In this document: one piece after another, positions 21,342 to 27,924 of the stretch | How positions within the stretch are numbered: the first letter of the stretch is position 1 | How the letters are laid out: every line of letters begins with the position of its first letter | NCBI GenBank assembly: GCA_025350815.1 | Contig: JANXXE010000062.1 | Coordinates: 1 to 40,986 of the forward strand | Direction: 5' to 3' | Source: Myxococcales bacterium | GTDB taxonomy: Bacteria > Myxococcota_A > Polyangia > Fen-1088 | DNA length: 40,986 nucleotides | Made by a program: the position numbers and the translations under genes | Notes under the pieces: generated by a model | The model's input: only the letters and a program-made list of their open reading frames with translations | Databases searched by the model: none | Told to the model about the DNA's origin: nothing

Positions 21342-22427
21342 TCATGCTGCGTGTTCTTGCGAGGAACGTGCCACGGCCGCATCCGGCCCCCCGTCGTCGA
21401 CAGGGTCCTCGCTGCCCTGTTCCCGCCACAGCCGCAGTTTGTTGCGCAGCGTCCGCAAGCTGATGCCCAGCAAGCGCGCGGCGTGTGTGCGATTGCCACT
21501 GACCCGGCGCAAAGCTTCGTTGATCGCGATTCGTTCCAGCGCCACAAGATCGAGGGGAAGGCCGGCCGGCAGCAGTTCGGCGCCGGGCGCAACATCAGCC
21601 GCGACCTCGACGACGGGCGCCGACACCGGTCCACGGCGCGTCAGGTTCAGCCCGCCGAGGTGACGGACGTCGAGGACCGCCTCGCGGCAGCGCACCATCA
21701 CCCGTTCCAGCAAGTTGCCCAGTTCCCGCACGTTGCCGGGGTATCCGTAACCGCACAGCATCGCCCGCGCCTCGTCGGACAGCGCAGGGGCGGGGCGGCC
21801 CATTTCCTGGGAAAACCGGCCAAGAAAGTACCGGGCCAGCTCTGGAATGTCTTCAGCGCGCTCACGCAGGGGCGGCAGCACGATGGGAAAGACGCACAGT
21901 CGGTAGTACAGGTCGGCGCGAAATTCCCGAGCCGCCACCATCTCCAGAAGATCGCGGTTCGAGGTGGCGATGACCCGCACGTCGACGGGTTGCGGGCGCG
22001 TCCCGCCGACGCGATCCACTTCGCGTTCCTGCAGAACGCGCAACAGCTTTGCCTGCAGGGGCAGCGGCATTTCGGAAATCTCGTCGAGCAGCAATGTGCC
22101 CCCGTCCGCCTGCTCTATCTTGCCCAGGCGCTTTTCCGACGCCCCGGTGAACGCGCCCCGCTCGTGACCGAAAAGCTCGCTTTCCAGCAATTCCGACGGC
22201 AGGGCTGCGCAGTTGACTGGCACCCAGGGCCCCTGGGCGCGGCTTGACCGTCGGTGAATGTGCCGGGCCAACACTTCCTTGCCCGTGCCGCTTTCCCCCA
22301 GCAGCATCACCGTGGTGTTCGTGTCGGCGACGTCCTCCGCAGATTCGAGGACGGCCCGCATCGCTTCACTGACGTAGACCGGCGACGAAGGACGCGCCAG
22401 CCGCGCGGTTTCGCAGGCCACCTTCAC
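21342..22427 (-). CDS. sigma54-dependent transcriptional activator 2, no receiver domain
   Basis: The 361-residue protein is an AAA+ bacterial enhancer-binding protein that would open sigma54 promoters. Walker A GESGTGKE is at 44-51, the sigma54-contacting GAFTGA at 91-96, Walker B GTLLLDEI at about 112-119 and arginine fingers in [12 protein letters not shown] Fis-type helix-turn-helix follows at about 315-345 ([25 protein letters not shown]). Only about 20 residues precede the AAA+ core, so there is no receiver or other sensor. GTG 22427 is chosen because it overlaps the upstream stop as GTGA. Being next to flgB it is probably the flagellar regulator (FlrC/FlgR-like role), by context. Confidence 0.9.
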
Positions 22428-23818
22428 GGGCGTTCTTTCTGCGAGGTCGCGCTCGCCATTTCGGGCATGCCGTTGTCTTCGAGCACGGCCCGCGCCCGCT
22501 TCAGGGCCGCCGACGCCGCCTCCAGATCCGAGCCAATCGCCTGCACGGCTGCGGCCGGTGCTTCCTTGACCTGCCTGGATTCGTCGTCGATCGCTCCAGT
22601 GTTCAGCAGACTGCGCTTCACACTGGCCCATCGGGGGCTGTTCGGCGCCTGGCCCATTCGCGAGCGAATGAACTCGAAGATGACGCGCGCACGCGCCGGA
22701 TCCTTGCCGGCCAGAAACAGTTCGGCGGCGCGCAGCAAATGATCGTCGAGCGATGCGGCGGCCACGTCGGGCGCGACGGCCGCCAGCAACTTGGCACCGA
22801 ACACCGGCGCACCAAGACGCGCGGACGCCTCCGCCCCGGCTTCGGCCAACTCGATGTGAAACAGGCCCTTGTCGCGATCAGGAAGCGCCAGATAGACCTC
22901 CATCGCGAGATCGCTGTCGCGCGGGACCGTGTGGCGCAACGCCGACAGGACGATGCGGCGGCACAGTGTCTGGCCGCCCCCCTGACACAGGCTTTTTTCC
23001 TGGTCGGCTTTCAAGGCCTCCAGCAGAACCGCCAAGGATTTGTCGAAGTGCCCCAGATACGCCTCGATTCGCGCCCGGCGCAAGGTCAGATCATCGCGCA
23101 GCGGCGGCGGAAGGTCAGCGACATGCGGATCCAGAACCGGAAACTGTCCGAAGCACGCAACACTGAACTCGCACAGTCGCGCCCCGGCGACGCGGCCGTA
23201 GGGGCCGGAACGCCCCGCGCGCTGGTACCAGCCGATGGCCGTCGCCGGATCCAGCGCTATCAGCGCCAGATCCCCCAGTCGCACGGCCGCCGCCTGCCGC
23301 TCGGGCGTCTCCAGGGCCTTGCGAAACTGCTCGGCCGCCTCGATCCATTTTCCCGCCGCGAACGCGCATTCCGCCTGACCGGCGACGGTCGTGCCCGGGC
23401 ACGCGCCGCCAAGGCCCGCGCGCGGAGGGTCGTAGATCACGCGGGGGGGACCGTCGGGACCGTCGCGCCAGGGAACGCCCCGCAGCTCGTAGATGTCGAG
23501 GAAGGTCTTGCCCTTGTCGACACTGAGACGCGCGTCGATCTGCCGGCTCTTGCACGAGAACTCGACCCGATCTGCCTTTGCGACCGCCGTCGGGCAGATC
23601 GATCCCAACGATCCTGCGATCTTCGCGGCAACCATGGCGGCGTCCTTGCCGACTGCCAGCGCCAGCCGGCTGTCGAGCGGCGTCAGTTCCAGGGCGGGCG
23701 CGCTGACCGTTGCGGGAATCGCGATACGTTCGACCACGGCCGCCGTCGCCAGCGTCGCTGACGGGGCGGACTGGTCGGCAGCAGCGGCCAACGCCATGAA
23801 TGTGGCGATCCAGAACAC
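22424..23818 (-). CDS. exported repeat (TPR-like) protein between two sigma54 activators
   Basis: Function unknown. The 464-residue product starts with a hydrophobic segment ([13 protein letters not shown], cleavage near AAADQ), so it is probably periplasmic. Residues about 35-125 form a mixed domain with the Cys pair [17 protein letters not shown]; the remainder consists of Ala/Leu-rich helical pairs resembling TPR or Sel1-like repeats, e.g. [17 protein letters not shown] (about 154-170) and [17 protein letters not shown] 23818 has GAGG five bases upstream; ATG 23797 is an alternative. It overlaps the next activator by four bases (GTGA), so it is co-expressed with it. A role in flagellar assembly or checkpoint sensing is only inference from context. 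Confidence 0.7.
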
Positions 23819-23830
23819 GCTTGCCTCTAT

Positions 23831-23846
23831 TGCAGCCCGCGTGCCG
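23831..23846 (-). promoter_or_regulatory. sigma54-like -24/-12 element, weak
   Basis: On the minus strand CGGCAC, five bases, CTGCA: the invariant GG and GC are exactly ten bases apart as in TGGCAC-N5-TTGCA, with two other mismatches. The start it predicts (about 23820) is only two bases before the GTG of the exported repeat protein and would exclude its ribosome-binding site, so it may be chance. Confidence 0.25.
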
Positions 23847-23917: not shown

Positions 23918-25063
23918 TCACTCGGCGGGCGCGTCGGGATTTCGACGCCGCAACTTCTCGACCAGGGTGGTGCGGCCCATCCCCAACAGCTTGGCCGCCT
24001 CCTTCTTGTTGCTGCCCGTCTGCGCGAGGGCGGCGTCGAGGTAGGCATTTTCCAACTGGCGCAGCATGGTGGGCAGATCGATCGGCAACGAAATAGCAAA
24101 ACCGGGCAATGGCGTCGGCGTGGCCGGCATTGTCAGGGGTGCGCTGACCAGTTCGTCACTGATGCCCGCCGACAACACGACGGGCGCGGGCGTCGATATC
24201 TCCTGCGCGTAGGCGACCGCCGGGATCAAGGCCGGCACCGCAGCGACGCTGTCTGTCTGGATCTGGATCTGGGCGGTCGGGCGCAAGATGGGCGGCAGGT
24301 CCGACAGGCGAATGACCGGTCCCTCCACGCACACAGATAGACGTTCGACCAAGTTCTCCAACTCGCGCACGTTCCCGGGCCATGCGTAGCTTTCAAGGCA
24401 GGCCAGTGCCGCCGCCTCGATGGGACGCGTCTCGCCCCGGCGTGCCCAGAAGTGCGCGAACAGAACCGAAATGTCCTCGGGCCGCTCGCGCAGCGCCGGA
24501 ATTCTGATCGGGCAGACGTGCAGCCGGTAATACAGATCGCTGCGGAAACGGCCCAGGCGCACCTCCTCGGCGAGATCCCGGTGGGTCGCGGCGATGAGAC
24601 GAAAATTGGCGGTAGTGGACTCCGAGCTGCCGACCGGCTCGTAGGTGCGTTCTTGCAGCAGGCGCAGGATCTTCACCTGCAACGACAGTGGCAGCTCGCC
24701 GATTTCGTCCAGCAACAAGGTCCCGCCCTCGGCCATCGCCACGCGGCCGCGACGGGGCGCCACGGCGCCGGTGAAGGCCCCCTTGACGTACCCGAACAGC
24801 TCGCTTTCCAGCAATGATTCCGGAATCGCGCCGCAGTTCACGGGCACGAACGGTCGGCCCACGCGCGTGCTGTTCGCGTGGACGAAACGCGCCATGACTT
24901 CCTTGCCGGTACCGGTCTCGCCGCCCAGCAGGACAGTCGCTTCACTGGCGGCGATGCGGGTGCATGTGCGACGAAGGTCGGCCAGCGGGGATCGCGGCGC
25001 ATGAACCAAGGCGGCGCCGGCGCCTTCCGCGGTACCGGCCAGTTGTATGGAAGATAACCCCAT
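23918..25063 (-). CDS. sigma54-dependent transcriptional activator 1, no receiver domain
   Basis: A 381-residue AAA+ enhancer-binding protein. Walker A GETGTGKE at 48-55, GAFTGA at 95-100, Walker B GTLLLDEI near 118 and [10 protein letters not shown] are intact, so it should activate sigma54 RNA polymerase. About 75 Pro/Ala/Val-rich residues link the AAA+ core to a Fis-type helix-turn-helix ([23 protein letters not shown]) at about 353-375. Like activator 2 it lacks a receiver domain; only about 35 residues precede the AAA+ core. ATG 25063 is chosen because the upstream open frame carries no homologous sequence and overlaps a promoter-like region. It follows the histidine kinase gene by 91 bases. 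Confidence 0.9.
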
Positions 25064-25086
25064 TGCCAGAATCCATCGGCGGGGTT

Positions 25087-25132
25087 CTGACGGACTTGAG
25101 CCAATATCCTGACAGCGCGCGCGAACCGTCAG
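25087..25132. repeat. nested inverted repeats upstream of activator 1, possible operator
   Basis: CTGACGG (25087-25093) and CCGTCAG (25126-25132) form a perfect 7-bp inverted pair. Inside it CCTGAC (25108-25113) and GTCAGG (25128-25133) form a second pair. Three copies of a TGACRG-like half-site thus cluster in the gap between the kinase and activator 1, overlapping the predicted promoter. Confidence 0.4.
25103..25132 (-). promoter_or_regulatory. sigma70-like promoter for activator 1
   Basis: On the minus strand CTGACG (25127-25132), 18 bases, GATATT (25103-25108), each matching four of six consensus bases. It lies within the nested inverted repeats, so binding there could block or tune it. 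Expected leader is about 35 bases to ATG 25063. Confidence 0.35.
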
Positions 25133-25154
25133 GAAACGGTCCCAGCGTCGGAGT

Positions 25155-26684
25155 CTAGGGGTTGCGCAAGGCCCTGCGGACCTCGTGGACCAGCCGGGCC
25201 ATGGTGAAGGGCTTGGCCACCAGAGCCTGTCCCGCGGACAGGACGCCACGGTGCACAATGGCGTCGTCGGCGTGGCCCGACATATAGAGGATTCGCATCT
25301 CGGGTCGCAGCGGGGCCAGGCGTGCCGCCACCTGCGGGCCGTTCATCTGGGGCATGACAACGTCGGCCAACAGCAGGTCGATGCGACCGGCGAACGATTC
25401 GCCAATCTCGAGGGCGGCCTGCACCGAATCGGCCTCCAGGACCCGGTAGCCCTGTTCCCGCAGCGCCGCGAGCACCAGCTCTCGGACGGCCGTCTCGTCC
25501 TCAACCAGCAGCACGGTCTCGGGACCGGCCGCTTCCTGCCTCGGCCCCGGCACAGTCGAGTGCGCCGGACGCATGCGCCCGGGAACCGCGGCCTGCGGCA
25601 ACAGGACCTCGAAAACCGCACCACGGTCCTGCGGACTGTCGACGCTGATGCGCCCCTGCATTCTTGTGACGGCCGCATGGACGCTGGCCAGCCGCAGTCC
25701 CGCATCAGTCTCGCTGACTCCGTCAACGGCGAAGGGCTCGAACATCTTGTCGCGCGCAGCGGTGCCCAGCCCGGGTCCGTCGTCGCCCAGCCGCAAACGG
25801 ACCCAAGAATCTTCCCGACCGTCAGGTGAATCGCCGTTCGACAGCTCGATGGCGACCCGCGCCCCATCGGGCGTCCTGTCCCGCGCGAACGCGACCAGAT
25901 TCATGATGGCCTGCTCGACCTGTCCCTGGTCGGCACTGATCTGCGCCAGCCCCGGGGCCGTCTTCACGATCAACTCACCGCCCTGCCCCAGCAGCCGACG
26001 CAAGACCGGCTCAACACCCGACACGACAGCGCCCAGATCCAGGATCTGCGGAGACAAGGTCTGGCGACGGCCCAGCGCCATCAGCTGCTGCGTCAGCGCA
26101 GTCGCCTTCTGCGCCGCGGTCACGATCTGACCCAGATCCTTGCGCCGGCCGTCGTCGGGGGCAAGACCGGCGAGAATGACGTGCGCGTAGCCAGAAATAG
26201 CCGTCAGAAGATTGTTGAAATCGTGGGCTATGCCGCCTGCGAGGCGCGCCACCGCTTCCATCCTTTGCGCCTGACGAAGTTCGTCCTCCTTGACCCGCAG
26301 CGCTTCCGTCGCACGGCGACTCTCCGTCAGATCGTAGGCGACGCCCACCACGCCGGTGATGCGGCCGTCGGGGTCGCGAAGCGGCTCGAGGTGGCAACGG
26401 TAGAAATGGCCCCCGAAGTCGGTCTCGTAGCTGACGCTTTGCCCGGACAACGACTGACGGTGGGCAGCGATGATCTTCGCCCGTACCCCCTGTGAATCGG
26501 CCAGAAAATCCTCCAGCGTCGAGCCCACGACCTGGCCTGGCTGCCAACCGGCACCGGCGAGGCCAGCACCGCCGGACCAAGTGTAGCGCAAGTCCGCGTC
26601 GACTGACCAAACAACCGCCGGCAGGTGGTCCAGCAGCCGCCGCAACGCCGCTTGGTCTTGTTGAACCGTTACAGCCGCCGTCAT
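25155..26684 (-). CDS. soluble hybrid PAS-histidine kinase with C-terminal receiver; degenerate ATP-binding domain
   Basis: The 509-residue protein has no membrane segment. A PAS domain spans about 14-122 ([17 protein letters not shown] opening). The H-box [10 protein letters not shown] has phospho-acceptor His154. The ATPase domain runs about 255-365: the G1 box DDGPGLG is intact, but the N-box reads NLVAFARD, with Phe266 where the Mg-binding Asn is expected, and the G2 box reads AGLRLAS instead of GLGLS, with Arg331 replacing Gly. The receiver (about 391-509) keeps Asp441 in LLLADVVMP and Lys491. The kinase may thus be weak, inactive or a phosphatase, passing signals by its receiver. ATG 26684 follows a GAGG-type site. 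It may regulate the flagellar genes that follow. Confidence 0.88.
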
Positions 26685-26757
26685 CGCATCACCTCGCCTG
26701 TCACCCTGACTGCCCACCTTGTCAACCTGCGCGGCATGGTAGCCTGGTGCCGTCTCG

Positions 26758-27924
26758 ATGCCAAGACGGCGCTGGTCGCTAGACGCATACCCCCGGCTTC
26801 TGTTGGCCGGACTTTTGGCCGGACTTTTGGCCGGAGTTTGGGCGGCGGGTTGCCACGGCGAGCCCATCCCGCCCCCCGGCAGCGGGTCCGACGCGCATCC
26901 CGCCGAAGACACCACGACAACCGACGCGACACCGGCCATCCTCGCCGTCGACTTCACCGCTGGGCAGTGCACGCAAATCGACCTCGCGGTGCCCCAGTGC
27001 AGCGGCCACGCCCCACTGACCGTGTCGTTCGTGCCAATTCACCCGGTCGGCATCAACCGCTACCTCTGGGATTTCGGCGACGCGACGGCAAAGTCGTCGG
27101 AACCAACACCCGTTCACACGTACAGCATCCCCGGCTCGTACGACGTCACGCTGGTGGGCGCGGGGGCGACCGGGACAGTCTCGAAGGTTCGGCCCGCCTT
27201 CGTCGTAGTCACAGTAAATGATCTGGGTGATCCCTGTGACGTGGACACGCAATGCAGGGCTGGCCTGTCGTGCGTGTGTGGTTCTGCCGGCAAGTGCCCG
27301 GCCGCGTTCGCCCGCGGAATCTGCGCGGCGACCTGCAGCGACAAACCGTGTGGGGACGCCGCCGTATGCGCCGACCTCACGTTGTCCGCCACGAACCCCG
27401 AGCCCTGGCAGCAGCCGCTGTGCCTGCGACCGTGCGCGCGCGACAAAGACTGCGGGCCCGGCCTCCGCTGCCGCGACGTGCCCGCCCGCAACCCGGCAGG
27501 TTCCTGGGTCAAGGCGTGTTTTGCCGAGACGCCCGGATCGCCGGGGACGTCGTGCCGGGGCGCCAACGGCCAGCTTCGCCACGATCTGTGCATCACCGGC
27601 CTGTGCGCAAACTTCGGCGCCAACGGACTGTGCTCACTCGACTGCGGGGTGGCCAGCTGCCCGCCGGGCCTGGGCTGCGCGGATCTCAACACCGGGCAGA
27701 AGATCTGCTTGCGCCCCTGTGACGCCGCGTTCGCCTGCGACGGCGACGGCCTGCTGGCCTGCGTGCCCGCCGACGGCATGGGACCGCTGGGGTTCCGGAT
27801 CCCGGGCGACGGCACCATGGCCAAGTACTGTTTTGCCAGGACCTGCGATCCCGGAGCCGCGACTTGCGGCGCGGTCGGCGTGTGTACCGAGGCGCGCGGC
27901 GGCGCCCAGTGCGTGCGCAAGTAG
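26758..27924 (+). CDS. PKD-domain, Cys-rich surface lipoprotein
   Basis: A 388-residue exported protein of unknown function. The signal sequence contains the repeated AGLLAGLLAG and ends WAAGC, so Cys32 is the probable lipidated residue. A PKD-like domain lies at about 65-152, with the core YLWDFGDA and HTYSIPGSYDVTLVG. Residues 153-388 form four to five Cys-rich modules with many paired Cys (CDVDTQCRAGLSCVC, CARDKDCGPGLRCRD, CSLDCGVASCPPGLGC), probably disulfide bonded. Such lipoproteins are common in myxobacteria. It is divergent from the kinase, with 73 bases between, and convergent with the permease-protease gene after nine bases. Confidence 0.8.
   Translation: MPRRRWSLDAYPRLLLAGLLAGLLAGVWAAGCHGEPIPPPGSGSDAHPAEDTTTTDATPAILAVDFTAGQCTQIDLAVPQCSGHAPLTVSFVPIHPVGINRYLWDFGDATAKSSEPTPVHTYSIPGSYDVTLVGAGATGTVSKVRPAFVVVTVNDLGDPCDVDTQCRAGLSCVCGSAGKCPAAFARGICAATCSDKPCGDAAVCADLTLSATNPEPWQQPLCLRPCARDKDCGPGLRCRDVPARNPAGSWVKACFAETPGSPGTSCRGANGQLRHDLCITGLCANFGANGLCSLDCGVASCPPGLGCADLNTGQKICLRPCDAAFACDGDGLLACVPADGMGPLGFRIPGDGTMAKYCFARTCDPGAATCGAVGVCTEARGGAQCVRK
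26805..26828 (+). repeat. 12-bp tandem repeat inside a signal peptide
   Basis: GGCCGGACTTTT occurs twice in a row (26805-26816, 26817-26828) and starts a third, diverged copy (GGCCGGAGTTTG). It codes the repeating LAGL units of the lipoprotein's hydrophobic signal core, so slippage would change the signal length by four residues and keep the frame. Confidence 0.85.

Follow-up and report, generated by a model that had tools for sequence, protein, structure and literature searches.

A CckA-type hybrid histidine kinase with a degenerate ATP site, found so far in one genome beside flagellar genes

What can a hybrid histidine kinase still do once its ATP site is damaged, and does one encoded next to flagellar genes belong to a flagellar circuit? 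Both questions are raised by a gene in the window, the whole 40,986-nucleotide stretch of DNA from a Myxococcales bacterium analyzed here (Table 1). A sequence-only reading had noted Phe266 in place of the N-box Asn and Arg331 in place of a G2-box Gly, with His154, the G1 box, and Asp441 and Lys491 of the receiver retained. It had suggested a phosphatase, a scaffold, or a receiver-based switch. Each of these residues is where that reading placed it, and a lost ATP site combined with kept phospho-acceptors would indeed point to a pseudokinase (phosphatase, sink, or scaffold), as we call the protein below.

Table 1. Features of the pseudokinase and its neighborhood (window positions)
Feature	Residues	Positions	Strand	Remarks
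Activator 2 ORF		21342..22631	minus	second receiverless sigma54 activator; true start probably further in
sigma54-like -24/-12 site		21358-21373	minus	just upstream of flgB
Gene between the two activators		22424-23818	minus	no Pfam match
sigma54-like -24/-12 site		23831-23846	minus	upstream of the gene after activator 1
Activator 1		23918..25063	minus	receiverless sigma54 activator with AAA+ and Fis-type HTH; directly downstream of the pseudokinase gene
Slot before activator 1		25064-26757		occupied by different genes by lineage
Hybrid histidine pseudokinase ORF		25155..26684	minus	ATG to TAG, 509 aa
PAS domain	~16-124
DHp domain	~144-210
H-box core HDFNN	154-158	26211..26225	minus	phospho-acceptor His154 (presumed), D155/N158
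Degenerate CA domain	~251-366
Degenerate N-box NLVAFARDR	262-270	25875..25901	minus	N266F, A270R
F-box end, ATP lid, and G2 box	315-334	25683..25742	minus	degenerate; low-confidence lid in model
Intact receiver (REC)	389-505	25170..25520	minus	D441, K491 present
sigma70-like site		26764-26736		consensus match only
PKD-domain gene		26758..27924	plus	divergent, far side of the pseudokinase slot

The ATP site and the phospho-acceptor domains

Pfam matches above the cut-off to PAS, HisKA, HATPase_c, and Response_reg all lie in one chain, and the last three together identify a hybrid histidine kinase. The residues in question stand in the contexts GGIAHDFNN (H154), NLVAFARDR (F266), DAGLRLASV (R331), LLLADVVMP (D441), and ALVAKPFTM (K491), and the G1 box is intact (D301, G303, and G305). 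All five HDFNN columns are invariant in an alignment of 42 rows; we take His154 to be the phospho-acceptor and D155 and N158 to be the pair of a phosphatase-type motif. Given this H-box, and given CckA as the best sequence match to the DHp-CA part among solved structures (PDB 5idj and 5idm; E 4e-34, with 35% identity in the structure match), the protein is a CckA-type (HDFNN) hybrid. CckA likewise has an HDFNN H-box and a C-terminal REC; however, it is an active kinase/phosphatase with an intact ATP site, whereas the site here is degenerate. CckA-like control by c-di-GMP was considered and is not supported, as H336 aligns with what is presumably CckA Y514, a position worked out by counting from CckA H322.

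The damage to the ATP site is real and had been understated. Ten further departures (A270R, M271T, M306L, F319A, T320V, T321D, K322G, G325E, G327D, and T328A) fall in nucleotide-motif columns with a conservation of at least 70% across 112 homologs. In other homologous ORFs, position 266 is Asn in 121 of 122, the remaining one being gapped, and position 331 is Gly in all 122. We also searched 4522 ORFs from 227 loci with a profile of the homologs' transmitter region; both N266 and G331 are kept in 185/185 other CA-complete transmitter ORFs. The two exceptions among the 187 CA-complete rows are both the window gene itself, present in two copies; the set was cleared of exact duplicate ORFs alone, and some genes may therefore be counted twice. 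Both homolog sets were gathered by similarity to the pseudokinase and thus are not random samples. Compensating frameshifts were rejected as a cause because no canonical motif appears in either of the other frames over codons 245-350. The protein thus lacks the N-box Asn and G2 glycines expected together in an active kinase, and with the N-box Asn, the ATP lid, and the G2 box lost, ATP-driven autophosphorylation is very unlikely.

Distribution of divergence along the protein

Divergence was counted as departures at columns for which 112 homologs show a conservation of at least 70%. In the CA domain, 25 of 57 such columns have changed (mean of the others, 10%; maximum, 37.5%), which makes the pseudokinase the worst of 113. 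In the DHp, 6 of 29 have changed, against a mean of 12% (13th worst), and in the REC only 2 of 31, against a mean of 13% (87th of 112 counting from the worst). At columns conserved at the 95% level the corresponding counts are 7/26, 2/9, and 0/9, the DHp figure comparing with a mean of 3% in the others and ranking eighth worst; by these counts the DHp is mildly affected too. The end branch of the pseudokinase measures 0.56 in a tree of DHp plus REC (median, 0.44; 46th of 132) and 1.33 in a tree of CA columns (median, 0.30; second longest). The tree gives the pseudokinase no supported placement, with no supported smallest set containing it.

Within the CA domain, departures are as frequent inside the nucleotide motifs (12/27 columns) as outside them (13/30; Fisher P = 1), and this want of any significant concentration in motifs speaks against a purely targeted loss. 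The changes do differ in kind: those in the motifs are radical (mean BLOSUM62 score, -1.1), those elsewhere in the domain mild (+0.15). The excess over homologs differs as well, 44% against a mean of 4% in the motifs and 43% against 16% outside. Of the 33 hydrophobic CA columns, 31 are still hydrophobic, the two exceptions being N-box residues 270 and 271. To judge from these patterns, the CA fold looks kept and the nucleotide pocket lost. An AlphaFold2 model run without a control gave CA block means of 76 to 93, except for residues 321-330, at 64; its input was 41 canonical homologs, and the predicted CA may be pulled to their fold.

GC3 is 0.78 to 0.79 in the PAS, DHp, and CA domains and 0.86 in the REC, with 0.78 to 0.82 in eight neighboring genes; lower values are confined to the first 15 residues (0.60) and the 19-residue linker (0.68). 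In codon use and hydrophobic core, then, the sequence looks like that of a living gene. The protein offers a clear natural case of a hybrid kinase in which divergence is far greater in the ATP domain than in the domains that carry the phospho-acceptors, a pattern that bears on the origin of pseudokinases in two-component networks.

The neighborhood and its counterparts in relatives

The pseudokinase gene is followed on the same strand, after a gap of 91 bases in which no terminator-like site was found, by activator 1, then by a gene with no Pfam match, activator 2, and the flagellar genes. Of the latter, fliF and fliG were called by Pfam and flgB by a weak rod-protein match; flgC is presumably among them as well. 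The sequence-only reading had pointed to nearby activators that lack receivers, and Pfam indeed finds none in either sigma54 activator. No partner receiver gene adjoining the pseudokinase was seen among the window ORFs searched with Pfam.

Several smaller features of this stretch can be recorded here. The gene between the two activators is 38 to 45% identical in 10 relatives. The sigma54-like site near flgB has a counterpart at the matching place in 9 of 10 family relatives (the contig of the tenth stops before flgB), and the site upstream of the gene after activator 1 has one in all 10. These sites are supported by matching position across relatives only, because the sigma54 pattern occurs 16 times in the whole window against 20 expected, which is not above chance, and a site on the other strand in one relative scored 19, equal to some of those reported. 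The sigma70-like site was found once, against 0.1 expected by shuffles.

Activator 1 is carried by 10 of 17 other family genomes at 63 to 67% identity; in the other 7, neither an activator 1 ortholog nor fliF was seen. The part matched in seven relatives has no receiver by Pfam. In the stretches examined, flgC or fliF follows in 9 of these 10 genomes, the contig of the tenth (G003) ending inside activator 2. Activator 2 stands beside activator 1 in four of the 10, and these four also have the PKD gene at the far side. By contrast, tblastn (E of ≤0.01) of the region before activator 1, taken to a length of up to 5 kb and to 1157 bases on one contig, found no match to the pseudokinase in any of the 10. 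The slot that the pseudokinase fills holds instead an FHA gene in six, a MinD/ParA-type gene in three, and an exonuclease gene in one; the FHA assignment comes from Pfam in three and from tblastn in all six, and PilZ was recognized in two of the three MinD/ParA-type genes. We note this turnover by lineage in loci L198 to L207 as an observation in itself.

The tblastn search of the slot is not very sensitive, and it missed a distant HEINN-type PAS hybrid kinase: five of the six loci with an FHA gene carry one, 1.3 to 3.4 kb from activator 1 on its upstream side. This kinase has intact N and G boxes, is about 25% identical to the pseudokinase by blastp, and is no ortholog of it. It nevertheless shows that the window is not alone in having a sensor kinase near activator 1. 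Membership of the pseudokinase in a conserved flagellar circuit, as its setting had suggested, was not borne out: the 10 family genomes with activator 1 lack a close counterpart of the kinase there and have other genes in its place, so that adjacency is no proof of such a circuit. Activator 1 shows no sign of acceleration in this genome, with identity to relatives outside genus g7 of 0.695 (n = 4) against 0.717 among those relatives (n = 5), compared with 0.659 and 0.708 for FliF (n = 3 each). The flagellar link looks weak, and the locus tempers any inference that flagellar adjacency places a kinase in a conserved flagellar circuit.

An ortholog sharing F266 and R331 was found neither among 58 other relatives (E of ≤1e-30, up to 25 of the listed candidates scored per genome) nor among 316 other genomes of the class (E of ≤1e-90, best four first-look candidates per genome) or 376 other genomes drawn evenly from the phylum (E of ≤1e-95, best four first-look candidates per genome); the three genome sets overlap. 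Among the candidates scored, the best full-length match is 43% identical, and partial matches in the class-genome search reach 48% (L227, residues 132-506). The conservation of Phe266 and Arg331 that the sequence-only reading had proposed to check consequently has no ortholog for comparison, and paralogs carry Asn and Gly. Within its own genome the pseudokinase best matches a hybrid HDFNN kinase on C41 that has normal N and G boxes and to which it is 41% identical across residues 124-509; no further HDFNN hybrid was seen among the 30 of 42 own-genome matches examined.

Precedents and competing explanations

By analogy, the nearest functional precedent would be RetS of Pseudomonas aeruginosa, described as a hybrid with a degenerate HATPase, a DHp, and a receiver (PMC5992135). 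In that account, the RetS HATPase lacks G-boxes and RetS cannot autophosphorylate; its REC2 receives phosphate from GacS, which RetS also dephosphorylates (PMC5992135). The two are not identical in build. The pseudokinase has an HDFNN-type DHp and a PAS input, and it has lost G2 and the lid but kept G1, whereas RetS is described as lacking its G-boxes; it has a single Response_reg match, whereas at least two receivers, with REC2 as the acceptor, are reported for RetS; and it has no known GacS-like partner.

NifL is not known to have a receiver, nor is ChpT, a two-domain phosphotransferase without PAS, known to have one of its own, whereas the pseudokinase has both PAS and receiver. ChpT likewise joins a DHp dimer to a Bergerat-type domain with no function in ATP use, and neither ATP nor ADP was seen in crystals grown with them, according to its structural description (PMC3433190). 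NifL resembles the pseudokinase in having PAS and DHp/GHKL domains and in the adjacency of its gene to that of a receiverless sigma54 activator (PMC12998174). DivL is described as keeping the histidine kinase fold for a purpose other than kinase activity, with Tyr550 where the phospho-acceptor His would be (PMC4211667), whereas the pseudokinase keeps His154 and a fused receiver. The ChrS pseudokinase is reported to have arisen in laboratory evolution (PMC9491836). As described in these sources, DivL, ChrS, ChpT, and NifL illustrate further ways in which a dead kinase core can be put to use.

The reading that we prefer, tentatively and at somewhat under even confidence, is that this protein is a CckA-type hybrid pseudokinase, seen in one genome so far, that drains phosphate from a partner kinase or dephosphorylates it as RetS does. 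It would pair with or meet an active kinase under the control of its PAS domain, and the partner's phosphoryl group would pass to D441, the partner's receiver would be dephosphorylated, or both; the HDFNN hybrid on C41 is a candidate partner. The loss of catalysis, the sink or phosphatase action, and the partner are what we infer from sequence. His154, D155/N158, and the well-kept receiver favor this RetS-like reading over NifL-like or ChpT-like ones. Against it, the equal share of departures in and outside the CA motifs is what general relaxation would give, the DHp shows some change of its own, and phosphatase action of the CckA type may need a nucleotide-bound CA domain. If correct, the protein is apparently a private example of an already known kind, with a few members described before.

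Decay is a serious rival: with no ortholog found, a pseudokinase state held under constraint is hard to tell from selection that has relaxed in a single genome. An acquired or lineage-specific kinase would be losing function, its ATP domain being relaxed already and the rest undamaged as yet. The confinement to a single genome (no ortholog among candidates scored in 316 other class genomes), the changes at 13 of 30 conserved CA columns outside the motifs, and the change in the DHp are all consistent with it. Still, we consider it unlikely, as the frame is intact, GC3 in all four domains is like that of the neighbors, the hydrophobic CA columns are largely kept, and the REC is nearer to consensus than in most homologs, whereas uniform decay would hit the REC too. 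A still-active kinase with an unusual but working ATP site is very doubtful. N262, D269, D301, G303, G305, and G329 are retained and HATPase_c is still recognized at 52.8 bits, but N266, G327, G331, and the TTK of the lid are lost together, a state for which the CA-complete ORFs offer no parallel at N266 or G331.

Among schemes that dispense with kinase activity, the pseudokinase might bind the receiverless activator 1, encoded directly downstream, at its AAA+ domain and control it as NifL controls NifA, without phosphotransfer. The same-strand adjacency across a short gap fits this, as does the NifL-NifA structure 9qq6_A among fold matches (rank 22), and five g7 relatives have the distant intact hybrid kinase upstream of activator 1. 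In NifL, moreover, no phosphotransferase activity is described, and the GHKL/DHp part contacts the AAA+ domain of NifA (PMC12998174). We nevertheless hold such control to be improbable, since nothing closely related to the kinase was found beside activator 1 in 10 relatives, activator 1 is not accelerated here, the well-kept receiver would have no role, and NifL inhibition is described as depending on nucleotide status (PMC12998174), whereas the pocket here looks lost. A variant in which the pseudokinase was placed before an existing flagellar activator and acts on it directly, with the receiver as an extra phosphorylation-controlled input, is more doubtful still; if true, a receiverless flagellar cascade would here have a switch that is specific to the lineage and works without phosphotransfer. 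A little less probable than plain NifL-like control is a ChpT-like role, in which His154 would receive phosphate in trans from another receiver and hand it on, the dead CA domain being structural. The kept His154 and DHp core suit this role, and ChpT is reported to have an atypical Bergerat domain and to be unable to autophosphorylate (PMC3433190), but the pseudokinase has a fused, well-conserved receiver of its own and no partner receiver gene was seen beside it.

A minor observation concerns genus g7 (L198, L199, L201, L202, and L203), in which the FHA gene stands directly before the receiverless activator. Beyond it lie a Ser/Thr-kinase-like ORF, recognized when L199, L201, L202, and L203 were translated, and the intact HEINN-type hybrid kinase. 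From this arrangement of genes, it is possible that the activator in g7 is under phosphothreonine control.
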